In this document: positions 3,766-21,961 of the stretch, one piece after another
Layout of the letters: each line of letters begins with the position of its first letter
How positions within the stretch are numbered: position 1 is the first letter of the stretch
Source: a virus
Virus record (IMG/VR): IMGVR_UViG_3300022072_000109
Location: 1 to 27,055 of that record
Length of the DNA stretch: 27,055 nt
Strand: one strand, 5' to 3'
Notes under the pieces: model-generated
Told to the model about the DNA's origin: nothing
Databases searched by the model: none
Seen by the model: only the letters and a program-made list of their open reading frames with translations
Made by a program: the position numbers and the translations under genes

Positions 3766-4881
3766 ATGAGCACAATTACATTCGGTTCGACCCTGTCCCT
3801 TGATCAGTTCAAGACCGCTATTGCTACCGCAGGTGATCAGGTCACCATCATCGGCGAGGGAGAGCCGGGGATCGGTAAGTCGGCAGTTATGGGTTCACTG
3901 TCCCGTCTATTCCCTAACCACGAGCATGCGTATATCGATTGCACACTGCTGGACTTAGGTGACTTCGCACTGCCGTATACCGAGGTGGTGGAAGCAACTG
4001 GTCTCAATATGCGGGTGACCAAGTTTGCGCCGAACGCACGCTTTAAGTTTCAGTCAGGCAAGCCTGTCATCGTGATGCTGGATGAGATCGGCAAGGCAAT
4101 GAAGTCGGTCAAGAATGTGTTGTTGACGTTGATGCTGGAGCATCGCATCGGTGACATGCAGTTGCCAAAGGGTTCGATTGTATTCGGCACGACCAACCTT
4201 GCATCAGATGGTGTTGGCGATATGTTAGAGGCTCATGCCCGCAACCGTGTCTGTTTCGTCAAAGTGCGCAAGCCACACGCAGGCTTCAATGCAGATGGAT
4301 CAATCGATTCTGATTCGTGGGGTGCGTGGGCGTTGGAGAATGATATTGCGCCAGAGATCATTGCAGGTGTGCGTCAGTACCCGCAGTTCTTGGAGAGCTA
4401 TACCAACCCAGCACAGAAAGAAAACCCGTACATTTTTAATCCGTTGCGTGCAGGTAGCGCGGCGTTTGTTACACCACGTAGTTTAGAGAAGGCAAGTCAC
4501 ATCGCGAAGAAGCGTCACGTACTAGGCAATGAGATGACCCTGAGTCTGTTGGCCGGTACGATTGGCGAGTCAGCAGCACGTGATCTGGAGGCGTTCTTCA
4601 CAGTAGTAGATAAGCTGGCATCGTGGGAGGTAATCATCCGTGACCCAGAGAACACCAAGCTACCCGAGGATACGATTGCCAAATGCATTCAGGTGTTCAG
4701 TGCGATTACCCGTGTCGATAAAGATTCGTTTGATCAGTGGATGACGTACCTAGATCGTATGGACAAGGAATGGCAGGCACTGTTCGCTCGCAGTATCGTC
4801 AAGTCATCGACCAAGTCGAGCATCGCTGTAAAGAATAAACGGTTCGTTAAGTGGGCGACCGACAATCAGTGGTTGTTTTAA
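3766..4881 (+). CDS. MoxR-type AAA+ ATPase
   Basis: A 371-residue ATPase. ATG 3766 follows CTTTGGAGAAGCAC and is preferred to a TTG twelve bases upstream that lies within this RBS. The Walker A motif is GEPGIGKS (32-39) and Walker B is VIVMLDEI (101-108). A sensor-1 TTN lies at 142-144 and a candidate arginine finger in AHARNRV (156-162). This layout fits the MoxR/AAA_5 branch of AAA+ proteins, which act as chaperone-like remodelling machines with VWA-domain partners such as NorQ-NorD and CobS-CobT. The next gene encodes just such a partner, 10 bp away. The protein probably works in the cytoplasm. The target in a phage is unknown; remodelling of a host or virion metal-dependent protein is only inference. 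Confidence 0.85.
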   Translation: MSTITFGSTLSLDQFKTAIATAGDQVTIIGEGEPGIGKSAVMGSLSRLFPNHEHAYIDCTLLDLGDFALPYTEVVEATGLNMRVTKFAPNARFKFQSGKPVIVMLDEIGKAMKSVKNVLLTLMLEHRIGDMQLPKGSIVFGTTNLASDGVGDMLEAHARNRVCFVKVRKPHAGFNADGSIDSDSWGAWALENDIAPEIIAGVRQYPQFLESYTNPAQKENPYIFNPLRAGSAAFVTPRSLEKASHIAKKRHVLGNEMTLSLLAGTIGESAARDLEAFFTVVDKLASWEVIIRDPENTKLPEDTIAKCIQVFSAITRVDKDSFDQWMTYLDRMDKEWQALFARSIVKSSTKSSIAVKNKRFVKWATDNQWLF

Positions 4882-4891
4882 GGAGATAAGC

Positions 4892-6058
4892 ATGACGACA
4901 TTAACTCAAGAGCAACGCGTTCAACGCTCACATGTATGGCTGATGAACGAGCCTAAGTATTGTTTGTTTGCAGGCATCATGATGATGGGTACGACTGAGG
5001 TGCGTGACGATATGCCAACGGCTGCAACCAATGGCCGCGATACATTCTACGGTCGTGCGTTTGTAGCCAAGCAGGATGAAAAGAAATTACGTGGGCTTAT
5101 ATTGCACGAGAACATGCACAAGGCGTTTCGTCATCTGACTATATGGGAGCCGCTGTACAAGAAGAACCCGCGCTTGGCTAACATGGCAATGGACTACGTG
5201 ATTAACTTGTTTATTGTAGACGCTGACCCTAACAAGCAACACGTTGACCTGCCAGACGGTGGGCTAGTAGATGCGCGGTTCCGTGGTATGGACGTAGGTG
5301 CTGTATATAAAATATTGGAACAAGAGAATGAACAAAATGATGGTGGTGATGAGGCAAGCGAGGGCACGGGGTTCGATGAGCATGACTGGGATGGGGCACA
5401 AGAGCTGTCCGCTGACGAGAAAGAAGCACTCGCAAAAGAAATCGATCAGGCACTACGTCAAGGTGCAATCCTTGCAGGTAAGTTAAAGGGGGGCGTACCA
5501 CGTGAGATCAGCGACATGCTCGAGGCTAAGGTTGATTGGCGTGCAGTACTGCGTGATTATGTAACCTCGTATTGCGCTGAGAAAGATATGTCCACGTGGC
5601 GCAAACCTAACCGTAGGTGGGTGGATCAGGATGTGTACCTGCCATCTGTTATCGGCGAGACGGTCGGACGCATCGTAGTTGGTATCGACATGTCAGGTTC
5701 GGTTGGGGCAGCAGAAATCGGTCAGTTCTTAGGTGAGTTGATGCAGATATGTAACGCTGTACACCCTGAAGGTATCGACCTGCTGTATTGGGACACACAA
5801 GTTTGTCAGCATGAGAAGTATGAGATGGGTAGCTACGAGGGGCTGATGACTAGCACTAAGCCCAAGGGTGGTGGCGGTACAAGTCCGGCATGTGTAGCTG
5901 AGTACATCACTGCACATAAGATCAAGGCCGAGTGCGCGATCATGTTGACTGACGGATACGTATCAAGCTGGGGTACGTGGCCTATCCCTGTACTGTGGGG
6001 CATCACCACTAAACGTATCGTTGCTGACGTGGGAGTGTCTGTGTATGTCGGAGATTAA
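4892..6058 (+). CDS. Metallopeptidase-like / VWA domain protein, MoxR partner
   Basis: A 388-residue protein with RBS TAAGGAGATAAGC. The N-terminal half carries a zinc-peptidase-type HExxH motif, HENMH (72-76), in a helix, followed by 'ANMAMDYVIN' (96-105), the usual downstream element of the DUF2201 N-terminal domain. An acidic linker (about 143-175) follows. The C-terminal VWA-like domain has the metal-ion-dependent adhesion site DMSGS (266-270) and a later TDG near 354. This two-domain layout matches the VWA-like family paired with MoxR ATPases. The VWA domain should bind Mg2+ and the ATPase or its substrate. Whether the HExxH site cleaves protein is untested. The gene overlaps the start of the next by 14 bp. 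Confidence 0.85.
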   Translation: MTTLTQEQRVQRSHVWLMNEPKYCLFAGIMMMGTTEVRDDMPTAATNGRDTFYGRAFVAKQDEKKLRGLILHENMHKAFRHLTIWEPLYKKNPRLANMAMDYVINLFIVDADPNKQHVDLPDGGLVDARFRGMDVGAVYKILEQENEQNDGGDEASEGTGFDEHDWDGAQELSADEKEALAKEIDQALRQGAILAGKLKGGVPREISDMLEAKVDWRAVLRDYVTSYCAEKDMSTWRKPNRRWVDQDVYLPSVIGETVGRIVVGIDMSGSVGAAEIGQFLGELMQICNAVHPEGIDLLYWDTQVCQHEKYEMGSYEGLMTSTKPKGGGGTSPACVAEYITAHKIKAECAIMLTDGYVSSWGTWPIPVLWGITTKRIVADVGVSVYVGD

Positions 6059-6260
6059 TGAGATTGTAGAACGGGAATTGCAGAAGCGGGCTCGGTCTTT
6101 GTGGGGTGTGCTCCACCAGATTACGTACGGTAGGCAGTATGAGATCACAGAGCACGCTGCCTTCTATCAGAGCAACCCACGCTTAAAGGCAGCAGGTCTG
6201 ACATACGACGAGGCTAATGCAATGTGTATCTTAATGAATGCAGGGGGTACCTATGAGTGA
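6045..6260 (+). CDS. Small hypothetical protein, paralogue of the next gene
   Basis: ATG 6045 (MSEINEIVERELQKRARS) lies inside the end of the VWA gene, after GGGAGTGTCTGTGT. A start further upstream in frame is less likely because it would extend deeper into that gene. The C-terminus LTYDEANAMCILMN (about residues 51-64) matches LTYDEALALTKLMN in the next gene, with near-identical DNA (TCTGACATACGACGAGGC). The unit looks like a small alpha/beta fold, perhaps with an RNA- or protein-binding role. Function unknown. Confidence 0.6.
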   Translation: MSEINEIVERELQKRARSLWGVLHQITYGRQYEITEHAAFYQSNPRLKAAGLTYDEANAMCILMNAGGTYE

Positions 6261-6444
6261 TGATATGTACTGCATCGCTGAAGGGTTATCAAAACGTACC
6301 GGACGCAGGGTGATGTATCACGGCAATGACGTAACCGCTATAGAGCTACGCAAGATCGGTATAGAAGTATTTGTAGAGGATCTGACATACGACGAGGCGT
6401 TAGCCTTGACCAAACTAATGAACGACGAACGGAGTGAATCATGA
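6253..6444 (+). CDS. Small hypothetical protein, paralogue of the previous gene
   Basis: 63 residues, ATG 6253 after CAGGGGGTACCT, overlapping the previous stop by 8 bp. It ends with the same LTYDEA..L..LMN element, then DERSES. The charged tail replaces AGGTYE in the first copy. It is part of the MoxR-VWA operon, coupled to the next gene by ATGA. Confidence 0.6.
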   Translation: MSDDMYCIAEGLSKRTGRRVMYHGNDVTAIELRKIGIEVFVEDLTYDEALALTKLMNDERSES

Positions 6445-7316
6445 TTGAAAACAGCGCAATGTTGGTAGACCTGAACATCTCAGCATGGACGGGTCGCAAG
6501 ATGGATAGAAAAGTATCAGACGAGATTGATGTGGCTAAGGGTACGCGTTCTAAAGGTGGCAACTATCACAAGTCATTGCTCGCTGGGTCAGGCAAGCTCG
6601 AGGAAGTACAGCGCATCATCAACGCTATCCGTGTATGGCACTACGCACAGACACTGCCTTGGTCGGACGCGGGCTCCCGCTTGCTGCCTATGAAAAACTT
6701 CTTTGCCTATAAGGCACAGTTGGGTGCGTATGAGGCGCAGTTCCGTACGGTAGTAGACGAGCTGGTGGCAGAGTATCCATCACTGGTTTCAGCTGCGGCG
6801 TTTCAGTTGGGTGCATTGTTTGACCGCGCAGAGTATCCGGACGTATCAAGCATCGCTAGTAAGTTTCGTTTTAACTACGTGTTCATGCCTGTCCCTGCTA
6901 CCGGCGACTTCCGCATCGATGTTGAGAGCGAAGCATTAGACGAGTTGAAGACACAGTACGAATCGTTCTACGCTACAAAGCTCAACGCTGCGGTCAAAGA
7001 TGTGTGGACGCGTTTACATGAATGCCTGACGCACATGAGCGACAAGCTGGCTGACCTTGAAGTACCAAAGGTTAAGAAGAACGGCGACGAGGTACATGCT
7101 CAAGTGTTCCGTGACTCGCTGGTGTTCAATGCGCTGGAGTTGTGCGAGATGCTGACTAAACTTAATGTGCTTGATGACCCGAAGCTGGAGCAAGCACGTA
7201 AGGAATTAGAAGCCGCCATTATCAACGTGACACCGAAAGATATTCGTGAGAGCGATGGTACTCGCGCTGATGTGAAGGCTAAGGTCGATGCCATCCTGAA
7301 GTCGTTTGACTTTTGA
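6441..7316 (+). CDS. Conserved partner protein of MoxR-VWA operon, 291 residues
   Basis: ATG 6441 overlaps the previous stop and follows ACGGAGTGAATC. Recognisable elements from memory of phage homologues are 'SAWTGRKMDRKVSDEI' near the N-terminus, 'TLPWSDAGSRLLP' (about 71-83), 'FRTVVDELVAEYPSLV' and a 'PVPATGDFRIDVE' segment before a long helical C-terminal half. I recall such proteins next to MoxR/VWA genes in phages and mobile elements; the family may be DUF3150-like, which needs a profile search. The predicted all-helical C-terminal half suggests an adaptor or substrate of the ATPase. No catalytic residues are visible. It ends the operon. Confidence 0.7.
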   Translation: MIENSAMLVDLNISAWTGRKMDRKVSDEIDVAKGTRSKGGNYHKSLLAGSGKLEEVQRIINAIRVWHYAQTLPWSDAGSRLLPMKNFFAYKAQLGAYEAQFRTVVDELVAEYPSLVSAAAFQLGALFDRAEYPDVSSIASKFRFNYVFMPVPATGDFRIDVESEALDELKTQYESFYATKLNAAVKDVWTRLHECLTHMSDKLADLEVPKVKKNGDEVHAQVFRDSLVFNALELCEMLTKLNVLDDPKLEQARKELEAAIINVTPKDIRESDGTRADVKAKVDAILKSFDF

Positions 7317-7815: not shown

Positions 7816-8106
7816 ATGGCACGTAAAACAACAGCAACAACAACGAAAATCATCGCGTACGTGGAGCGCAATCCGGATGCTAAACCAGCACAGATTGCTA
7901 AGGCGTTAAAGGTTCCCGTAGTACGGGTTTATTCAGTACGTTCGAAGCTGAACAAGCAAGCGGAACCCATACCTGTAGTTCTGGATGAAGTTACTAACCT
8001 CAAACCAGAAGAATGGAAGACCATCGCATACGCGATTACCAAAGGCCGTACCCGTGTTGAAGAACCTAAAGGCTTCTGGGCTAAGGTTGTTGGGTGGTTC
8101 AAATGA
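7816..8106 (+). CDS. Small helix-turn-helix protein with the operator palindrome in its gene
   Basis: 96 residues. ATG 7816 follows TCTTTGGAGAAGAAC; the TTG within this RBS is rejected as start. A basic threonine-rich N-terminus (ARKTTATTTK) precedes an HTH-like segment 'IIAYVERNPDAKPAQIAKAL' (about 12-31) with a probable recognition helix near VRVYSVRSKLNK. An aromatic basic tail, GFWAKVVGWFK, ends the protein. The codons for VPVVRV contain an exact CCCGTAGTACGGG site (7915-7927). This suggests the protein, or another regulator, may bind within its own gene. It could be a nucleoid-associated or transcription-control factor. DNA binding is inferred from fold-like pattern only. Confidence 0.6.
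   Translation: MARKTTATTTKIIAYVERNPDAKPAQIAKALKVPVVRVYSVRSKLNKQAEPIPVVLDEVTNLKPEEWKTIAYAITKGRTRVEEPKGFWAKVVGWFK
7915..7927. promoter_or_regulatory. Operator palindrome inside a coding sequence
   Basis: CCCGTAGTACGGG, identical to the copy at 127-139, lies within the HTH gene. Its flanks on the minus strand (AATAAA before, AACC after) resemble those of the intergenic copies on the plus strand, so the site is inverted relative to them. A random match to 12 fixed bases is expected about 0.0016 times in a window this size. Confidence 0.6.
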
Positions 8107-9565: not shown

Positions 9566-9660
9566 TGACTGAATATCCACTAAGCATGGTGTTGTTTGTT
9601 ATTGGACTAGCTTGCTGGTGTTTCTTTATGGGGTATGTGTATGGGAGGACGCATGACTGA
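9565..9660 (+). CDS. Tiny single-span membrane peptide, 31 residues
   Basis: It begins MTEYPLSMVLFVIGLACWCF, then FMGYVYGRTHD. A single hydrophobic helix covers most of the peptide. The start overlaps the upstream stop and the stop lies 8 bp inside the next gene. The fit between neighbours is the main evidence; a weak RBS (AAGGGGGGATTG) precedes it. Confidence 0.5.
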   Translation: MTEYPLSMVLFVIGLACWCFFMGYVYGRTHD

Positions 9661-10111
9661 CAAAGAAGTAATGCAGATGGCGATGACTGCGCTGCAAGAA
9701 AATTGGAGAACAGATCAAGGTGATTTGGCAATCGAAGCACTACGCACAGCACTAGTGCAGCCTGAGTCAGCGGAATGTGACGGTGGAAAATGTGGCATCG
9801 GTGGGTATTGCAAGCAATGTCCAAAGACGCAACCTGATGTTCCCGAAAGCTGTTTCGGGGAGACGGAGCCAGTAGCGTGGGTTTCAGATAGAGAAGCACG
9901 AATGGTTTGGTGGAACGATAAGTTTACGCACATATCGCAAGCACCGCCGAGAAACACACCACTCTACACAGCGCCACCACAGCGCGAATGGGTAGGGCTG
10001 ACAGATGATGAATATGAATTAATGGCAGAGAAGCGCGTTACTAATTATTTTTTTAACACTTTAGATTATGCCCATGACATCGAAGCAAAGCTAAAGGAGA
10101 AGAACACATGA
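9653..10111 (+). CDS. Modular accessory protein with EPVAW, PLYTAPP, EWVGLT and KLKEKNT segments
   Basis: 152 residues. ATG 9653 follows GGGAGGACGC; an upstream in-frame ATG would lack an RBS. The N-terminal part is helical (ALQENWRTDQGDLAIEALRT) with a Cys-rich piece (CDGGKCGIGGYCKQC) that may bind a metal. It is followed by EPVAW, then PLYTAPP, then EWVGLTDDEYELMAEK, then DIEAKLKEKNT. The last segments recur in neighbouring genes in DNA as well as in protein. The last codons contain the RBS and overlap the ATG of the next gene. Function unknown. Confidence 0.65.
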   Translation: MTDKEVMQMAMTALQENWRTDQGDLAIEALRTALVQPESAECDGGKCGIGGYCKQCPKTQPDVPESCFGETEPVAWVSDREARMVWWNDKFTHISQAPPRNTPLYTAPPQREWVGLTDDEYELMAEKRVTNYFFNTLDYAHDIEAKLKEKNT

Positions 10112-10608
10112 CTAGAAACGATATAGTAAAGATAATGCATGAAGCGGGATTCAATTTATCCCTGCGTGGGCATCCAGATTTTCCGGAGAAAGATAACGAC
10201 GGCAATCTTTTGTTTTGGACATCTGGAGGAAACAAAGAGTTTCAAGCAATTTTTGCTCTTGCCTATGAAGCAGGTCGTAAATATGAAAATGAGGTGTGTG
10301 CGAAAGAAGTAGATAGATGGATTGGTTGCGACTTGTTGGCAGCAGCTATCAGAGCAAGACTAGCGCAGCCTGAACCGGAGCCGGTAGGGTGGATATATAG
10401 CCCTACTGGAACATTGTTTGATACTTGCCCACCGGACGCTGATGATGGTGAATTTTTGCCTCTCTACACCGCACCACCAAAGAAAGAATGGGTAGGGCTA
10501 ACGGATGAAGACATTGCAAAGAATATTTATGTAGAAGGTGAATTTATGTTGCCCTATTCTTTTGCAAGCTCAATTGAAGCAAAGCTAAAGGAGAAAAACA
10601 ATGGATGA
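10108..10608 (+). CDS. Modular accessory protein, 166 residues, with EPVGW/PLYTAPP/EWVGLT modules
   Basis: The N-terminal domain (MTRNDIVKIMHEAGFNLSLR through 'LLAAAIRARLAQPE') is unlike the preceding gene. The C-terminal half has the shared modules EPVGW, PLYTAPPKKEWVGLTDEDI and IEAKLKEKNNG. The gene thus looks like a fusion of a private N-terminal domain to a common tail. It overlaps both neighbours, the start by ATGA and the end by 8 bp. Confidence 0.65.
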   Translation: MTRNDIVKIMHEAGFNLSLRGHPDFPEKDNDGNLLFWTSGGNKEFQAIFALAYEAGRKYENEVCAKEVDRWIGCDLLAAAIRARLAQPEPEPVGWIYSPTGTLFDTCPPDADDGEFLPLYTAPPKKEWVGLTDEDIAKNIYVEGEFMLPYSFASSIEAKLKEKNNG

Positions 10609-10831
10609 ACCAGTGGCGTGGTTTTGTAAACTGCCTGATAACAAAATCTCAATCAAAATCGTCGGCAAACCAACGGAGGGCAACTGGGAGCCACTTTACA
10701 CCGCACCACCGCGCCGCGAATGGGTAGGGCTAACTGGTGAAGAACTGCAAGAGATTTATCAAGGCGGAGGAACTGTGCATTTTAAATTAGCAATGGCTGA
10801 AGCAAAGCTAAAGGAGAAGAACAATGGATGA
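10601..10831 (+). CDS. Short protein consisting only of the shared modules
   Basis: 76 residues: MDEPVAW at the very start, then a variable strand-rich piece, EPLYTAPPRREWVGLTGEEL, and AEAKLKEKNNG. It equals the C-terminal half of the previous gene without the private N-terminal domain. This shows the tail can exist as a free-standing gene. The start lies in the cassette GCAAAGCTAAAGGAG..AACAATG at 10576-10603. Confidence 0.65.
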   Translation: MDEPVAWFCKLPDNKISIKIVGKPTEGNWEPLYTAPPRREWVGLTGEELQEIYQGGGTVHFKLAMAEAKLKEKNNG

Positions 10832-11057
10832 GCCAGTAGCGTGGGAAGCATTAGTAGAATCTGTGCGCCAGATGCGTGATGTGCAGGGCATGGATGGTAA
10901 TTGGAACTACGACCCTTATATGCACGGGCTTTTTAATGGGATTGAGTTTTCTCTTTCGCTGATTGAAGTGCGAGAGCCAAAGTTTAGGGATGCACCAGAA
11001 AAGTGGTTGTGCGACGAGCCGAAAGCACGAATTTTTTCAGAGGATAAGAACAAATGA
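10824..11057 (+). CDS. Hypothetical phage protein starting MDEPVAW
   Basis: 77 residues. The start shares MDEPVAW, in near-identical DNA, with the previous gene. The remainder ('NYDPYMHGLFNGIEFSLSLI', 'EVREPKFRDAPEKWL') is the type of small phage protein with HGLFNGIELAL..E.REP..RDAP, function unknown. It lacks the EWVGLT and KLKEKNT parts. The start appears to have been exchanged with that of its neighbour. Confidence 0.65.
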   Translation: MDEPVAWEALVESVRQMRDVQGMDGNWNYDPYMHGLFNGIEFSLSLIEVREPKFRDAPEKWLCDEPKARIFSEDKNK

Positions 11058-11254
11058 CATGGCAAGTATGGACAAACATAATGCAGAAGAACGGAGCTTC
11101 GACTCATGTAGTGCCGTTAAACGACCTTCGAGAGCATGAGGAAGATACAACGTGTTGGTGTAATCCAAGAGTTGACGAGGAGCTGAACTTAGTTACGCAT
11201 CATAGTGCAGACAATAGAGAAGAATTTGAAACAGGGGAAAGGAAACCGACATGA
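11054..11254 (+). CDS. CWC-motif small protein, first paralogue
   Basis: 66 residues, ATGA overlap with the previous stop. The core 'VVPLNDLREHEEDTTCWCNP' followed by a VDEE/HH/S.D.REEFE region and end GERKPT recurs in the gene at 11522-11683. The CxC pair and conserved His could bind a metal. I recall such 'HDLREH...CWC.P' proteins in phages, function unknown. Its tail codons AAAGGAAACCGAC form the RBS for ATG 11251. Confidence 0.65.
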   Translation: MTWQVWTNIMQKNGASTHVVPLNDLREHEEDTTCWCNPRVDEELNLVTHHSADNREEFETGERKPT

Positions 11255-11508
11255 ACGAACAAATTAAACAACTTTGGGTGCAGGCTGCTGAAACAACTCA
11301 AGGTGATTCTTGGGAAGAGCAGACAAAGTTTATTGAACGGTTTGCCGAGTTGATTGTGCTGGAATGTATGCGTATGTGTGAGGTTACAGAGATGAGTTTT
11401 GTGACTCATAATTGTGATGTTGAGGCATCAGGTGCAATTACTGTTAGACAATTTATTGCTGAACATTTTGGAGTTGGGGATATACCCGCGCCATCGAAGC
11501 AAAGCTAA
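11251..11508 (+). CDS. Phage protein of the FAELIV..C...HFGV type with an out-of-frame tail
   Basis: 85 residues. The body 'FIERFAELIVLECMRMCEVT' and 'RQFIAEHFGV' is a common small phage protein type that normally ends shortly after HFGV(E). Here ten extra residues (GDIPAPSKQS) follow. They are the second reading frame of the repeated KLKEKNT cassette (11496-11525), which other genes read as IEAKLKEKNT. The cassette still supplies RBS and ATG for the next gene. This looks like a recombination event that kept the RBS but ignored the frame. Confidence 0.65.
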   Translation: MNEQIKQLWVQAAETTQGDSWEEQTKFIERFAELIVLECMRMCEVTEMSFVTHNCDVEASGAITVRQFIAEHFGVGDIPAPSKQS

Positions 11509-11521
11509 AGGAGAAGAACAC

Positions 11522-11683
11522 ATGACAATGCACACTTACCCGCTAAATGATTTGCGCGAACACGAAACTGATAAAGGTGCATTTTGCTGGTGTAGACCAG
11601 AGTACGACGAGGAGTATGACCTGTATGTACATAGAAGCATGGATGGACGCGAAGAGTATGAAGAAGGAAGGAAGCCTACATGA
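11522..11683 (+). CDS. CWC-motif small protein, second paralogue
   Basis: 53 residues (MTMHTYPLNDLREHETDKG). The start at 11522 is placed exactly behind the cassette RBS AAAGGAGAAGAACAC; an earlier in-frame start would overrun the upstream gene. It shares LNDLREHE, CWC.P, YDEE, REEYE and GRKPT with the gene at 11054. It lacks the first 13 or so residues of that copy. Coupled to the next gene by ATGA. Confidence 0.65.
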   Translation: MTMHTYPLNDLREHETDKGAFCWCRPEYDEEYDLYVHRSMDGREEYEEGRKPT

Positions 11684-11946
11684 GCGACCCAGAAATGACT
11701 ACGTTTGGTATGTACCCGAACTGGGGTATCGAATACTGTAAAGCATACGCCGAGCAACTCAGAGATAAGACAAGGGCAAACCGAGCAGTACACGCAGCAG
11801 AGTGCATTGAGTATCTTTTAAGTTTAGTTCAGAAAGAATGGGTAGGGCTGACTCATGAAGAACACATGGAAATTATGACAGGAACGATGACAACATCAAG
11901 CCGAATGGCGGCAGTCGAAGCAAAGCTAAAGGAGAAGAACACATGA
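11680..11946 (+). CDS. Modular protein with EWVGLT and EAKLKEKNT tail
   Basis: 88 residues. The private N-terminal domain (MSDPEMTTFGMYPNWGIEYC through 'AAECIEYLLSLVQ') is helical and joins directly to KEWVGLTHEEHMEIM and VEAKLKEKNT, without EPVAW or PLYTAPP. A different domain order from its neighbours again shows mosaic assembly. Its end overlaps the next ATG. Confidence 0.6.
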   Translation: MSDPEMTTFGMYPNWGIEYCKAYAEQLRDKTRANRAVHAAECIEYLLSLVQKEWVGLTHEEHMEIMTGTMTTSSRMAAVEAKLKEKNT

Positions 11947-12134
11947 TCGACGCAAGAAAATTACAGTACTACACGATGGCGCATAGGCTACAGGGTTACG
12001 CTGAGGGGTTGGATGAAGATCGATACGAAGCACTGTCGGACATGTTGATGAGAGCCGCGAAGATGTTGGAAGAAACATGGGAAGAGTACCACTCGACCCT
12101 GCCAAAAGTAAACAGACTGGAGAAGAACACATGA
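11943..12134 (+). CDS. Small helical protein with shortened cassette tail
   Basis: 63 residues, rich in helix-forming residues ('RLQGYAEGLDEDRYEALSDM', 'MRAAKMLEETWEEY'). The end is NRLEKNT, encoded by DNA in which only the last 16 bp of the cassette (GGAGAAGAACACATGA, 12119-12134) are kept. This is the shortest cassette form and still carries the RBS and next start. Confidence 0.6.
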   Translation: MIDARKLQYYTMAHRLQGYAEGLDEDRYEALSDMLMRAAKMLEETWEEYHSTLPKVNRLEKNT

Positions 12135-12340
12135 CTGGCGATGATTTAGAACGTGCGTTTTATCGTGATTGGGACGCAGGCAAAGTGCGGCGTGTGTCTG
12201 ATGGAAAAAGAATGGTTCCAGAGCGTGAATGGGTAGGGCTGACGAAGGAGGAAGCTAGAGAACTTTGTGTGGCTAACGTACCGTATGTTGTAGACATGGT
12301 GGCTGCATTGGAGGCCAAGCTAAAGGAGAAGAACACATGA
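12131..12340 (+). CDS. Modular protein with EWVGLT and KLKEKNT tail
   Basis: 69 residues: MTGDDLERAFYRDWDAGKVR, then REWVGLTKEEARELC, then AALEAKLKEKNT. ATG 12131 is set by the shortened cassette RBS. The cassette at its own end (12311-12340) has GAGGCC in place of GAAGCA. No function is known. Confidence 0.6.
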   Translation: MTGDDLERAFYRDWDAGKVRRVSDGKRMVPEREWVGLTKEEARELCVANVPYVVDMVAALEAKLKEKNT

Positions 12341-12537
12341 GATGCTGGCATAAAAAACTATACTACGTACGCACAGCGTGGAAAGCATTTGCTGGTGGAG
12401 GCGGTAGAAACTACTTAGTTACGGCTTCACTTGGAAGGGCTATGCGCATGAACAAGAAGTTGAAGGTAGTAGAAAGACAGATTGATGTGCGAGTACGTGG
12501 AAAGAAACCATACGTTTTGAAAGGGAGTTGGTTATGA
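12337..12537 (+). CDS. Small basic hypothetical protein
   Basis: 66 residues, start coupled to the previous stop. Rich in Lys/Arg and aromatics (MRCWHKKLYYVRTAWKAF), with a GGGG turn and ending KPYVLKGSWL. The high basic content could mean nucleic acid binding. The end is encoded by AAAGGGAGTTGGTTATGA, which provides the RBS for the next gene. No family recognised. Confidence 0.55.
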   Translation: MRCWHKKLYYVRTAWKAFAGGGGRNYLVTASLGRAMRMNKKLKVVERQIDVRVRGKKPYVLKGSWL

Positions 12538-12701
12538 CAGCAAAGAACGACATTACAGGCGACAAGATACAGACCAAAGAAATAACGGACAAGTACCGTG
12601 ATGGCTACGCCGCTATATTCAACCGCGACAAGTGCGAACGATGCGGTAAGACTTTGTTTGAAGACCACATACATACTTGCACACCGAAGGAGGAGAAGTG
12701 A
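12534..12701 (+). CDS. Small putative zinc-binding protein, 55 residues
   Basis: It reads MTAKNDITGDKIQTKEITDK and then contains 'NRDKCERCGKTLFEDHIHTC', giving a CxxC followed by an HxHxxC set suitable for one zinc ion. Its ATG overlaps the previous stop and its stop overlaps the next start (TGATG). The tail KEEK is encoded by the RBS AAGGAGGAGAAG of the next gene. Similar short 'IxSDKYRxGWDAIFG...' zinc proteins occur in phages; that is from memory. Confidence 0.65.
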   Translation: MTAKNDITGDKIQTKEITDKYRDGYAAIFNRDKCERCGKTLFEDHIHTCTPKEEK

Positions 12702-13033
12702 TGGCAAAAACATGGAAAGTACCAGAAGGTTACGACGGCCTGCCGGTAATAGGAATCAAACACGATCACGCCAAGCCGCGCATGAGTCTCATGCCAGAAG
12801 GTGTTATGGAAGAGATGCTGGCAGTGCTTGAGTACGGCGCAGCTAAGTACAGTGACGACAACTGGATGATCGTACCTGATGCCCAGACCCGCTACTACGA
12901 TGCCGCACACCGACATATCGAAGCATGGTGGAGATGCGAAGCTAAGGATCAGGAGTCAGGTAAGTCGCATCTGGCACACGCTATGTGTTGCTTGGCATTC
13001 TTGATGTGGTTCGATAAGCAGGGGGGACAATGA
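12701..13033 (+). CDS. dATP/dGTP diphosphohydrolase-like protein
   Basis: 110 residues, RBS AAGGAGGAGAAGTG overlapping the start. The pattern 'KHDHAKPRMSLMPEGVMEEM', 'EYGAAKYSDDNW', 'RYYDAAHRHIEAWW', 'ESGKSHLAHAMCCLAFLM' is that of the all-alpha dATP/dGTP diphosphohydrolase N-terminal domain family (DUF5664). These proteins convert dNTPs to dNMPs and pyrophosphate with Mg2+. The His and Asp/Glu residues in those segments are the likely metal and nucleotide ligands. In phages this adjusts the nucleotide pool or supports modified-base genomes. No purZ or other base-modification gene is visible here. It sits inside the accessory array. Confidence 0.8.
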   Translation: MAKTWKVPEGYDGLPVIGIKHDHAKPRMSLMPEGVMEEMLAVLEYGAAKYSDDNWMIVPDAQTRYYDAAHRHIEAWWRCEAKDQESGKSHLAHAMCCLAFLMWFDKQGGQ

Positions 13034-13242
13034 ACGAAGAAGAGCAATGGATTGAAACGAACAACGCAACGTGCGCAATAATAAGGCAGCTACACGATTC
13101 AATAGCGTTGGCCTCACTACCACCAAGACGCAGATGGATTGACCTGACGGATGAAGAGATGCGTGAAATAATTCGTGCGCATGATGTGTATTTGGATATG
13201 TGCCGCGCTATCGAAGCAAAGCTAAAGGAGAAGAACACATGA
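13030..13242 (+). CDS. Modular protein with a diverged EWVGLT segment and KLKEKNT tail
   Basis: 70 residues. It carries RRRWIDLTDEEMREI in place of EWVGLTDEE, then CRAIEAKLKEKNT. This is the most diverged copy of the module, while the cassette at its end (13213-13242) is identical to others, which suggests the cassette spreads independently of the protein module. ATGA overlap with the previous stop. Confidence 0.6.
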   Translation: MNEEEQWIETNNATCAIIRQLHDSIALASLPPRRRWIDLTDEEMREIIRAHDVYLDMCRAIEAKLKEKNT

Positions 13243-13543: not shown

Positions 13544-13739
13544 CCCAACACAAGTAACGACCGACCAGCTTTACTTCCGTGACCCAGACATTGACCCGCC
13601 ACCACGAGCAGTAAGTATGTTGCTGTTGAATGCAGGTGGTGTGTGCATAGTCGGGGTATGGGATGACTCTTGTATGGGTTGGTGTCCGAAGCCGCGCATA
13701 CCGCGCTCTATTAAAGAAAAAATGACGGAGATGAAATGA
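13536..13739 (+). CDS. Hypothetical protein ending with the MTEMK cassette
   Basis: 67 residues, beginning MSDPTQVTTDQLYFRDPDID. 'PDIDPPPRAVSMLLLNAGGV' and 'WDDSCMGWCPKPRIP' are recalled from phage proteins of unknown function (beta-sheet rich, Cys/Trp-rich end). Its last residues KMTEMK are encoded by a 21-bp sequence that also ends the next gene and carries ACGGAGATGAA as RBS. Confidence 0.6.
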   Translation: MSDPTQVTTDQLYFRDPDIDPPPRAVSMLLLNAGGVCIVGVWDDSCMGWCPKPRIPRSIKEKMTEMK

Positions 13740-13900
13740 AAGAAGTAACGGTTAAGGACGGAGAGGGCAAAGTACTAACGACGTTTAACATGCACCCCGC
13801 CGAATTTGAGTTAGCAAAGAAACTAGGTGTGCCGAGAGATGTGTACGTTAAAGAAAAAGTTAAGCAAGTACTAGCAAATAAAATGACGGAGATGAAATGA
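13719..13900 (+). repeat. Second gene-end/RBS/start cassette (MTEMK)
   Basis: The 21 bp at 13719-13739 and 13880-13900 are identical and contain ATGACGGAGATGAAATGA. Each codes for KMTEMK, supplies GGAG as RBS and starts the next gene by ATGA overlap. A related form ends the gene at 1967 (KEMTE). Confidence 0.75.
13736..13900 (+). CDS. Small hypothetical protein ending with the MTEMK cassette
   Basis: 54 residues, starting MKEVTVKDGEGKVLTTFNMH and ending ANKMTEMK. ATGA overlap at both ends. The middle has a short helix pattern (EFELAKKLGVPRDVYVKEKV) that looks like a minimal HTH or ribbon fold, too short to assign. The 3' end (13880-13900) is identical in DNA to 13719-13739. Confidence 0.55.
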   Translation: MKEVTVKDGEGKVLTTFNMHPAEFELAKKLGVPRDVYVKEKVKQVLANKMTEMK

Positions 13901-14118
13901 ACCATGTACTACTAGATCGATTGTTGTTAGTATTAGATTTAAAGAATACCCGCGCACTGGCGAAGCATCTGGAAGTAACGGAAGGCTCACTGAGTAAGAT
14001 CCGTGCAGGTGAACGCAAGGTAACAGGCGATCTTATCCTTACCATCTATGACAAGTCAGGTATGTCCCTTGATGCAATCCGCACACTAGCGAAAGAAGCC
14101 AATGGCACAAACGCCTGA
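13897..14118 (+). CDS. XRE-like helix-turn-helix regulator, second copy
   Basis: 73 residues. 'LLDRLLLVLDLKNTRALAKH', recognition region TEGSLSKIRAGERKV, and 'LILTIYDKSGMSLDAIRTLA'. The layout equals that of the 8300-8587 protein but without its basic N-terminal extension. It probably binds DNA as a dimer and controls early or replication genes. RBS ACGGAGATGAA from the MTEMK cassette. It overlaps the nuclease gene by 17 bp. Confidence 0.7.
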   Translation: MNHVLLDRLLLVLDLKNTRALAKHLEVTEGSLSKIRAGERKVTGDLILTIYDKSGMSLDAIRTLAKEANGTNA

Positions 14119-14416
14119 AAAGAAAGTTAAAGATAAAGTACGCAAGATGCTGGATGCCGCAGGTGCTTATCACTTCATGCCTGCTACGGGTGGGTTCGGT
14201 GCATCGGGTGTACCAGACATCGTTGGTTGCTATCACGGCACATTCTTCGCCATAGAGTGCAAAGCAGGCGCAGGCCGGACGACAGCGCTACAGGATAGAA
14301 ACCTCGGCATGATCTCTAAGGCTGGTGGGTATGCTGAAGTGATTAACGAGAACAACCTTGGTGATGTGCAGTTGATGCTAGACCGCATCTATCCTAAGAA
14401 GCCATGCGCAATGTAA
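14102..14416 (+). CDS. VRR-NUC nuclease
   Basis: 104 residues, the normal size for stand-alone phage VRR-NUC domains. The PD-(D/E)XK active site is seen as GVPDIVG (36-42) and AIECKAG (50-56), followed by GRTTALQ with the usual Gln (64). It cuts DNA, probably branched or flapped structures, with Mg2+, and works in phage replication or recombination. ATG 14102 lies within the end of the HTH gene; the end overlaps the winged-helix gene by 13 bp. Confidence 0.9.
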   Translation: MAQTPEKKVKDKVRKMLDAAGAYHFMPATGGFGASGVPDIVGCYHGTFFAIECKAGAGRTTALQDRNLGMISKAGGYAEVINENNLGDVQLMLDRIYPKKPCAM

Positions 14417-17226: not shown

Positions 17227-17398
17227 TGAGTTAGATACCACGGTGAAGAGCCGGTATTTCGTAGTACGTCCCAATGAGTCTAGGCTGGAGCCGGTGATGC
17301 TAAGTAAGGAAGTTTCCTTACGGATTGACTACGATGCTGCAGGTAATATGGTTGACGTGCAGTGGCGCAAGAAAGGTAAGGAATGGACGAAAGCGTAA
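17213..17398 (+). CDS. Small hypothetical protein overlapping polymerase end
   Basis: 61 residues, MASVDELDTTVKSRYFVVRP. ATG 17213 is chosen within the polymerase gene's last codons; an earlier in-frame start would lie deeper in it. The product is strand-rich and basic at its end (WRKKGKEWTKA). Its end overlaps the next start by 16 bp. No family recognised. Confidence 0.55.
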   Translation: MASVDELDTTVKSRYFVVRPNESRLEPVMLSKEVSLRIDYDAAGNMVDVQWRKKGKEWTKA

Positions 17399-18072
17399 CC
17401 CCGAAGTACACATGGTCGTATAGCAGCATCTCGCTGTTCAGCCAATGCCCGAAGAAGTATCACCGCCTCCGTATCGTTAAGGACATCATCGAGCCGGAAG
17501 CAGAACACTTATTGTATGGAACCGCTGCACATTTGGCGGCTGAAGAATACATCCGTGATGGCACACCGCTCCCTGCCAAGTTTAGCTTTATGCAAGACTC
17601 AATGGATGCGATGAACAAGCTCAAAGGTGAGAAGCATTGTGAGCTGAAGATGGGTCTGAATAAGAACCTCGATGCTTGTGAGTTCTTCGCTAAAGACGTT
17701 TGGTGGCGTGGCGTAGCCGACTTGGTGGTGATCGATGGGGAGAAGGCTTACCTGATTGACTACAAGACTTCCAAGAACGCAAAGTATGCGGATACTAAGC
17801 AGCTTGAGTTGCTGTCGCTGGCGTTGTTTAAGCACTTTCCACAGGTCAAGAAAGTTAAGGCTGGACTGCTGTTTTTGGTTGCAAAAGACTTCGTAAAAGC
17901 GGATTATACTAACGATGAGAAGCGTGGAACCTCATGGCTCAAATGGCTGGAAGAAACCAAACGGTTGGAGGTAGCACTCAAGACTGCGGTATGGAACCCT
18001 AAGCCTAACTTTACTTGCCGTGGTTGGTGTCCCGTAACTGACTGTAGCCATTGGCAAGAACGCAGAAAATAA
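17383..18072 (+). CDS. RecB/Cas4-like PD-(D/E)XK nuclease with probable Fe-S cluster
   Basis: 229 residues. 'SYSSISLFSQCPKKYHRLRI' is the standard N-terminus of the PDDEXK_1 family. The active site is GTAAH (H50), GVADLVV (D113) and LIDYKTSK (D126, K128), with Q140 in the QxxxY-like motif region (KQLELLSLAL). Cysteine 22 and C-terminal cysteines 212, 216 and 221 match the four-Cys iron-sulfur arrangement of Cas4 and AddB nucleases. It should process DNA ends in recombination together with the helicase downstream. RBS AAGGTAAGGA. Confidence 0.85.
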   Translation: MDESVTPKYTWSYSSISLFSQCPKKYHRLRIVKDIIEPEAEHLLYGTAAHLAAEEYIRDGTPLPAKFSFMQDSMDAMNKLKGEKHCELKMGLNKNLDACEFFAKDVWWRGVADLVVIDGEKAYLIDYKTSKNAKYADTKQLELLSLALFKHFPQVKKVKAGLLFLVAKDFVKADYTNDEKRGTSWLKWLEETKRLEVALKTAVWNPKPNFTCRGWCPVTDCSHWQERRK

Positions 18073-20610: not shown

Positions 20611-21030
20611 ATGGACGAACCGGAATCAGTAGCAATTGCGAAAGTAATAGGCGCAGACAAGCTAGTACAGACATATGTAAAAGTACGCGATAAGCGTAAG
20701 CTAATAGCAGATGAGTTCAAGGCTAAAGATAAAGAGCTACAAGATATATTGGATATTATTGAAGCTGAACTTCTTGAGTCATGCAAAACCACAGGTGTAG
20801 AAAGTATGCGTACCGAATTTGGTACAGTAAGTCGTAAAGTTGCAAAGCGCTATTGGACGAATGATTGGTATTCGTTTCACGAATTCTTAAAGGAACATGA
20901 CGCATTAGATCTGATGGAGAAACGAGTATCCCAATCTAATATGGACACGTTCTTGAAAGATAACCCTGCCCTGCTTCCGCCGGGTCTTAATGTTGACAGC
21001 CGATACACGGTTGTTGTTCGTCGTAAATAA
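20611..21030 (+). CDS. Hypothetical helical protein before the ssDNA-binding candidate
   Basis: 139 residues. ATG 20611 follows CTTGGAGAAGAAA. A helical charged first half (VKVRDKRKLIADEFKAKDKE, then QDILDIIEAELLES) leads to 'CKTTGVESMRTEFGTVSRKV' and 'YWTNDWYSFHEFLKEHDALD'. The pattern resembles phage proteins found beside single-stranded DNA-binding genes, and distantly a Gam-like coiled coil. It probably acts in DNA replication or recombination, by context only. Confidence 0.65.
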   Translation: MDEPESVAIAKVIGADKLVQTYVKVRDKRKLIADEFKAKDKELQDILDIIEAELLESCKTTGVESMRTEFGTVSRKVAKRYWTNDWYSFHEFLKEHDALDLMEKRVSQSNMDTFLKDNPALLPPGLNVDSRYTVVVRRK

Positions 21031-21040
21031 GGAGAAGTGT

Positions 21041-21961
21041 ATGAGTGAATTAGCATTGTTGAGTAAAGGTCTTCCAGCCCACTTGCGTAACCGAGATGGC
21101 TTGGATGAGATGACTAAAGCCCTGATGGGTGGCGGCGGTGGCGGTGGTAGCAAGCGTATCTCGATCAAAGGCGGCGTATGGCGCATGATGGTTGATGGTA
21201 AAGAAGTTGCTAAGAACGAAGAGCGTGCGATGAATGTAGTTATTGTTGCTGCTGCGCCAAAGGTAAGCCGTACTTTTTATGAAGGTACATATACCGAGGG
21301 CGAAGTAACCTCACCTGCCTGCTGGTCTGCTGATGGTGAACAACCTGATGCAACTGCCAAGAGCCCACAGGGCAAAACGTGCGCTACCTGCCCACAAAAC
21401 ATTAAAGGTTCAGGCCAAGGGGAATCACGTGCATGCCGCTTCTCACAACGTCTGGCTGTAGTGCTTGAGAACGATGTGCAAGGTGACGTGTATCAGTTGA
21501 CGTTGCCAGCGCAGTCGATCTTCGGTGCAGGTGAGAATGGCAAATGGCCGCTGCAGACTTACGCAAAGATGCTGGGTAGCAAGGGTGCTCCTGTTAGTTC
21601 CGTAGTTACGGAAATGCGTTTCGATACAGGTAGTGCTACACCTAAGCTGACGTTTAAGCCTTCGCGTTTCTTGGAGACCGATGAGTTTATGCAAGCTGTG
21701 GATCAAGGCAAAACACCTGATGCGATTAAAGCAATCACCATGACTGTTGCGCAGGCAGATGGCGTTAAGGACGATGGCGAGAAGTTTGAACAAGTAGCCA
21801 AAGCACCTGCAAAGAAAGCTGCCCCTGCTCCAGCCCTTGTGGTTGAAGAAGCGGAAGAAGAAATTGCTGAGCCTGTAAAACGTGCCAGCAAAAAGGATGA
21901 AGAAGCACCAGCCGCGAAAAAAGACTTGTCGAAGATTCTAGACGAGTGGGATGATGAGTAA
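21041..21961 (+). CDS. Zinc-binding protein with acidic tail, candidate ssDNA-binding protein
   Basis: 306 residues. ATG 21041 follows AAGGAGAAGTGT; an earlier in-frame TTG is inside the previous gene. The core has an SPACWSADG segment and cysteines at 94, 114, 117 and 132, able to hold one zinc. A GGGGGGG run lies near 30. An Ala/Pro/Lys linker (about 262-295) joins a final SKILDEWDDE tail. Acidic tails with an aromatic residue are typical of single-stranded DNA-binding proteins such as T7 gp2.5 and bacterial SSB, where they recruit partner enzymes. Place among polymerase, helicase and primase genes supports this, but the fold is not proven. Confidence 0.65.
   Translation: MSELALLSKGLPAHLRNRDGLDEMTKALMGGGGGGGSKRISIKGGVWRMMVDGKEVAKNEERAMNVVIVAAAPKVSRTFYEGTYTEGEVTSPACWSADGEQPDATAKSPQGKTCATCPQNIKGSGQGESRACRFSQRLAVVLENDVQGDVYQLTLPAQSIFGAGENGKWPLQTYAKMLGSKGAPVSSVVTEMRFDTGSATPKLTFKPSRFLETDEFMQAVDQGKTPDAIKAITMTVAQADGVKDDGEKFEQVAKAPAKKAAPAPALVVEEAEEEIAEPVKRASKKDEEAPAAKKDLSKILDEWDDE

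Follow-up and report, generated by a model that had tools for sequence, protein, structure and literature searches.

How the genes of phage mosaics are joined is an old dispute. In integrons, promoterless small genes stand in series as cassettes, with a foldable attC site and an integrase. Short conserved boundary (linker) sequences between exchangeable phage genes have been proposed as substrates of homologous recombination, most boundaries having no identifiable one (PMC3029335). The PeSLs of T4-type phages are, as summarized in PMC4503421, mobile regulatory cassettes made of a promoter and a stem-loop (Arbiol 2010; Comeau 2014). We analyzed a 27,055-bp virus record (IMG/VR IMGVR_UViG_3300022072_000109, hereafter the window). 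Between 8.8 and 14.4 kb, small genes follow one another on one strand as a gene string in which a 30-bp unit, here called the joint, is repeated at gene ends. The joint is a shared sequence constrained both as a protein tail and as the ribosome-binding site (RBS) and start of the following gene, and genes change partners with breakpoints at the joint and at a second conserved stretch, which encodes WVGLTDEE. With a probability of roughly three in four, we interpret the repeat as a dual-coded translational joint, which both closes a protein module and connects genes through shared homology, and which is shuffled by homologous recombination.

In effect, the joint resembles conserved boundary sequences and PeSLs; it differs in being translational and coding and in supplying the translation signal of the gene that follows. 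Like conserved boundary sequences, it is a short conserved sequence at a gene boundary where homology ends and the flanking genes differ. It differs from them in being coding and including the RBS and start of the next gene, and in being repeated seven times in 3.2 kb of one genome and common to hundreds of gene pairs. With PeSLs, as that summary presents them, it shares dense repetition among small accessory genes and a credited role in shuffling; unlike them, it showed no promoter or stem-loop in our scans and is an element of translation that lies within coding sequence. Promoterless small genes in series also make up integron gene cassettes. In contrast to them, the joint has no foldable attC-like site (two copies, folded with RNA parameters, did not exceed shuffled sequences) and its switch points are spread out. 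No integrase was recognized among the window proteins searched, in a 27-kb record that may be incomplete. By the available tests, the joint is not integron-like. The boundary sequence is here visible, repeated, and tied to a clear role, that of keeping swapped genes translatable, and natural junctions on which to test it number in the hundreds.

The joint and its protein module

Most neighbors in the gene string overlap by 4-8 nucleotides (nt), and some of its junctions have no joint. A sequence-only reading of this DNA had reported seven full copies and one partial copy of a ~30-bp unit; these were confirmed and located, all within 10082-13242, the partial copy being 16 bp long (Table 1). The full copies read GAA GCA AAG CTA AAG GAG AAG AAC ACA TGA or are close variants of it. 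They contain a strong Shine-Dalgarno (SD) sequence, AAGGAG, with the ATG 7-8 nt further on, overlapping the stop codon as ATGA or ATGGATGA; the stop/start form is ACATGA in five full copies and ACAATGGATGA in two. AAGGAG and the start codon of the next gene are present in every copy. Allowing up to three mismatches, GGAGAAGAACACATGA occurs nine times in the window versus 0.30 expected from shuffles. The copies at 10082, 11496, 11917, and 13213 are identical over 30 nt, and the 10082/11496 pair shares 35 nt. Counted from the GAA codon, exact identity is 20-35 nt for most window copies, that at 12311 being interrupted by its GAGGCC start. Promoter-like sites in the joint region showed no excess (10 versus 7.4 expected) in a scan covering sigma-70-type sites, and the terminator scan found no plus-strand terminator-like site in the gene string; the genes therefore look promoterless and polycistronic.

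All copies had been thought to encode EAKLKEKN. This stood for six of the seven full copies, which are in frame; the exception, at 11496, is read by gene G in another frame, ending ...PAPSKQS*. The genes between the copies had been called unrelated, which does not hold for all of them: six share a C-terminal module of ~40 amino acids (REWVGLTDEE-(variable)-AIEAKLKEKN; in general form, W(V/Q)GLTDEE-(variable)-AIEAKLKEKN), PLYTAPP is common to three, and phrog_2864 is matched by gene 11054 as well as gene 11522. The module is predicted to form two helices, at a predicted local distance difference test score (pLDDT) of about 90, with KLKEKN ending helix 2. Pfam and PHROGs searches with the WVGLTDEE...KLKEKN module matched no family consistently, Foldseek with the module model gave no structural match (best E = 2.2), and a search of the literature on the module peptide found nothing. 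Gene 10601 matches phrog_60 (EPVAW...LYTAPP; E = 0.0005) on the N-terminal side of WVGLTDEE. To that extent it resembles phrog_60-type phage proteins; it differs from them by its module, which lies outside any consistent family. A likeness to calmodulin, from the module profile against PDB sequences (best E = 0.016), was weak and was taken as chance arising from the acidic helix start.

Selection on the nucleotides and on the protein tail

To collect modules with the tail unconstrained, IMG/VR was searched with EWVGLTDEE-type DNA alone. An LKEKN-like tail was present in 142 of the 150 distinct modules among the matches listed. Where an ATG follows the module (112 modules), the SD Lys codon was AAG by 91:8 and the SD Glu codon GAG by 88:12, against a gene-body background in the same genes of 43% AAG and 42% GAG; the Lys codon just before Leu, outside the SD, was at background level (41:56). 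Replacements of the SD Lys by Arg used nearly always AGG or CGG, retaining GG. Despite varying last residues (T, HG, NG, A, Q, V), the start codon lay exactly 7 or 8 nt past GAG in 117 of 142 modules. Because the SD codons are far above background and the start spacing is mostly constant, we conclude that the nucleotide sequence of the joint is under selection. When SD codons of coupled and uncoupled copies were compared in this module set, most "uncoupled" copies preceded a short open reading frame or a GTG or TTG.

The protein tail is selected too, because the Leu outside the SD is kept in 110 of 112 start-coupled copies with all six codons in use, and because KLKEKNT is kept without an SD at operon ends in L128, L134, L147, and L155 (one lineage) and in L149, where AAAGAAAA encodes it. 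The sequence-only reading had taken the tail for a by-product of the DNA, which these results contradict. It had also named KLKEKNT with other codons and no RBS as the sign of selection on protein; that pattern was found in part of the copies, and DNA and protein are both selected. One short sequence is thus under selection for the protein it encodes and for the RBS it contains; its homology is probably selected too.

The Leu codon was shared in 43% of joint pairs inside one contig versus 27% across contigs, and control Leu codons of the same genes gave 23% within and 22% between contigs. This higher sharing within contigs suggests that joint copies spread or convert within genomes.

Partner exchange and its explanations

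Junctions were compared between pairs of contigs in a set of 335 de-duplicated contigs, which contained 481 joints; 1636 ATGA overlaps preceded by an SD served as controls. An upstream match covered the 100 nt before the joint and a downstream match the start of the next gene. Where the upstream sides matched, the downstream side was the same in 25 pairs and different in 264 at joints (25/289), versus 161 and 246 at controls (161/407; Fisher p = 2e-21). Where the downstream starts matched, the upstream side was the same or different in 25:112 pairs at joints and 161:184 at controls (p = 4e-9). For the fraction of upstream-matched pairs with the same downstream side, contig-bootstrap 95% ranges were 0.05-0.15 at joints, 0.27-0.52 at controls, and 0.21-0.50 at controls within 1.5 kb of a joint. 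In close pairs sharing the upstream side, identity stayed at ~0.9 through the joint and was 0.29 after ATGA. Pairs sharing the downstream gene kept an identity of at least 0.8 back to -27, reaching ~0.3 by about -36, whereas control junctions with the downstream gene alone shared were already at ~0.5 at -11 and 0.35 at -20. The window itself matches L203 nearly fully as far as joint 10082, with different genes beyond. The switch points are scattered across the joint and do not fall on one base.

Ordinary mosaicism with selection would explain such junctions by illegitimate, random recombination whose survivors keep an SD and a start; the joint would then be a good RBS ending a common module, and no recombination address. 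We consider this unlikely. Compared with local controls, the joint shows far more partner change (odds ratio 0.18), identity upstream of a common downstream gene is lost far sooner at controls, codon bias does not account for the likeness of copies within one genome, and the WVGLT island swaps too, though it has no RBS role.

Several results nevertheless weigh against shuffling by homologous recombination, and three of them favor random mosaicism. Control ATGA junctions are shuffled as well, ~60% of their upstream-matched pairs having another downstream gene. In a paired test within single genes, the joint side alone had changed in 10 cases and the ordinary side alone in 3, which is only borderline (p = 0.09); both sides had changed in 24, so accessory genes move at ordinary junctions too. 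The longest exact run in the 24-nt core is ~11 nt between random contigs, short for direct pairing, and the exact identity of unrelated copies is often below known minimal pairing segments. In addition, the contigs are metagenomic, contig pairs are not independent, and recombination is read from sequence comparison. A search for an annealing protein identified none; the protein at 20990-21961, modeled for this purpose, reached only pLDDT 36.

Gene H, searched alone, showed 92-100% protein identity across 33 metagenomic contigs (L395-L427). After de-duplication, its 23 contexts fell into 17 upstream and 8 downstream classes, and a whole or partial joint preceded it in 21 of them. Seven of 21 contexts were found again in different metagenome records, which makes assembly chimeras less likely. 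Under that explanation, assemblers would have fused unrelated phages at the 30-bp repeat; every partner change does come from metagenomic contigs, and a repeat is where chimeras are expected. This repeat, however, fits within a single sequencing read, identity in many exchanged pairs is 70-95% and not 100%, i.e., the events are old, and the decay of out-of-frame copies described below is confined to the coding half. We therefore regard chimeras as a highly improbable source of the exchange. As an observation apart, conservation at the level seen in gene H is unusual for a shuffled accessory gene.

The joint was also found out of frame. Relatives of gene G in L181, L191, L360, L400, L401, and L411 end in PxPSKPN* or PEPSKPS*, other relatives end in ...EHFGVE(E)*, and about nine different next genes follow the out-of-frame joint of gene G. 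In L237, L271, L414, and L415, the coding half of this joint has decayed (CCATAACAACAAAGC, CCATAGAAACCAAGC), and the ribosome-binding half remains or nearly so. Most relatives of gene J (11943-12134) end in ...DQRVGS; the window gene has the 16-nt partial joint and L442 an out-of-frame full joint. The gene upstream of a gene J relative ends in ..DLIKVEDL/K in L444/L448 versus ..DLIKEKNT in L452, where GGAGAAGAACACATGA replaces the native end; we read L452 as a capture of the ribosome-binding half alone. The proposal that the unit is a portable translational joint at which gene order breaks is borne out by the partner exchange, the breakpoints, the SD codons above background, and this out-of-frame use after genes G and J.

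Around WVGLTDEE, 238 pairs had the same insert and different bodies, 188 the same body and different inserts, and 32 both the same, and identity switches inside the WVGLTDEE island. About five other insert types were seen on the body of gene 11680, and in L106 the insert of this gene sits on another body. By these comparisons, the WVGLTDEE-coding stretch is a second swapping point. Spread of the module by duplication and divergence, with the KLKEKN genes as paralogs diverged beyond recognition and their neighbors differing through loss or duplication, would be in keeping with the module and PLYTAPP being common to several window genes and with the strong conservation at the protein level. It is largely refuted already by near-identical segments between unrelated flanks, namely, near-identical insert DNA on unrelated bodies and identical bodies with unrelated inserts. 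Gene H, which lacks the module, stands nearly unchanged behind its 17 upstream classes, and the joint is out of frame after genes G and J, so that we give this explanation very little credence. The PLYTAPP-coding DNA (9959-10012, 10459-10512, and 10691-10744), upstream of REWVGLTDEE and phrog_60-like, is also conserved; it may be a third swapping island.

In the reading that we favor, genes would be exchanged by homologous recombination at the joint, and selection would then retain the operons that can be translated. The joint has three roles in this reading. As protein, it closes the small C-terminal module; as RNA, it provides the AAGGAG site and a next start codon overlapping the stop; as DNA, it offers up to 25-30 bp of shared identity, repeated in the genome and among related phages. 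Recombination at the joint would link different upstream and downstream genes while the operon remained translatable, and the WVGLTDEE-coding stretch would let gene bodies and variable inserts swap too. The shared homology presumably drives exchange through phage annealing or strand-exchange enzymes, the next gene would be translated via coupling or re-initiation, and easy gene exchange may help to keep the joint in use. Minimal pairing segments are 23-27 bp for Redbeta and 31-34 bp for RecA (PMC3945230), and the exact identity of most window copies lies in this range; copies from random contigs share less. The sequence-only reading suggested that the unit is kept as nucleotides for translation and for homologous recombination. 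Selection on the translation signal supports the first part, and we infer the second, with which the data are consistent.

The joint suggests a simple rule for the gain, loss, and reordering of promoterless small genes in phage operons and could serve as a natural connector in operon building. Tentatively, and with less confidence, the two stretches might form a combinatorial system, in which a shared pool of short peptide inserts lies between the WVGLTDEE and KLKEKN-RBS-ATG joints and bodies, inserts, and following genes reassort independently, as an evolved device diversifying accessory genes. A single short sequence would then close a protein module, open the next gene, and act as the address for recombination. 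The accessory genes would possibly serve host takeover or counter-defense.

Distribution and neighboring features

The joint recurs in hundreds of environmental phage genes. The IMG/VR scans for the joint and module give lower bounds on abundance, with at least 120 contigs carrying the joint. Tails ending in TAA or TAG, scanned for as a control, numbered 41, and any that lacked module context were discounted as chance occurrences. Among isolate phages, BLASTN with the region returned a single 48-nt match, in DSL-LC05, and tblastn with a made-up module consensus found six phage records, of which Manatee Spring accounted for four and Dishui Lake for two. Ten matches were found in prokaryote-genome contigs, and only L170, L171, and L176 were family-like; these are metagenome-assembled genomes of Alphaproteobacteria, Betaproteobacteria, and Rhodoferax, from which freshwater Burkholderiales would be possible hosts. 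A search for a close sibling of the window via gene 14936 gave only distant relatives (29-56%). A small AlpA/excisionase-like DNA-binding protein has a KLKEKNT tail without the WVGLTDEE module (L100:574, minus strand; L129).

Table 1. Joint copies, C-terminal modules, and selected genes of the window
Feature	Position	Strand	Remarks
Joint copy 1	10082..10111	+	End of gene 9635-10111; RBS and start of gene 10108
Joint copy 2, ACAATGG form	10576..10605	+	End of gene 10108-10608; start of 10601
Joint copy 3, ACAATGG form	10799..10828	+	End of gene 10601-10831; start of 10824
Joint copy 4, out of frame with gene G	11496..11525	+	RBS and start of gene H (11522)
Joint copy 5	11917..11946	+	End of gene 11680-11946; start of 11943
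Partial joint, RBS half only	12119..12134	+	End of gene J; start of 12131; exact part limited to GGAGAAGAACACATGA
Joint copy 6, GAGGCC variant	12311..12340	+	End of gene 12131-12340; start of 12337
Joint copy 7	13213..13242	+	End of gene 13030-13242; start of 13239
Module EWVGLTDDE...KLKEKNT of gene 9635-10111	9986..10111	+	
Module of gene 10108-10608	10486..10608	+	
Module of gene 10601-10831	10718..10831	+	
Module of gene 11680-11946	11836..11946	+	
Module of gene 12131-12340	12227..12340	+	Structure modeled, pLDDT about 90 over module
Module of gene 13030-13242, RWIDLTDEE variant	13132..13242	+	
Gene G	11251..11508	+	Out-of-frame joint behind it in several phages
Gene H, 53 amino acids, phrog_2864	11522..11683	+	Shuffled among many upstream partners
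Endonuclease/Holliday-junction-resolvase-like protein	14102..14416	+	
PD-(D/E)XK exonuclease, possible recombination enzyme	17383..18072	+	phrog_69, E = 9e-23

An adjacent gene pair beyond the last joint, at 13719-13747 and 13880-13908, has ends that both read KMTEMK-ATGA (AAAATGACGGAGATGAAATGA) and are 90% identical over 29 nt; they are possibly a second, different joint. Six copies of the palindrome CCCGTANTACGGG lie within the first 3.8 kb (127, 610, 683, 843, 1752, and 3727), two of them shortly before a gene start, and another is at 7915; it looks like an operator- or promoter-like repeat. Consecutive genes at 3766-7316 encode an AAA_5 ATPase, a DUF2201 metallopeptidase/VWA-like protein, and a protein with a weak DUF3150 match.

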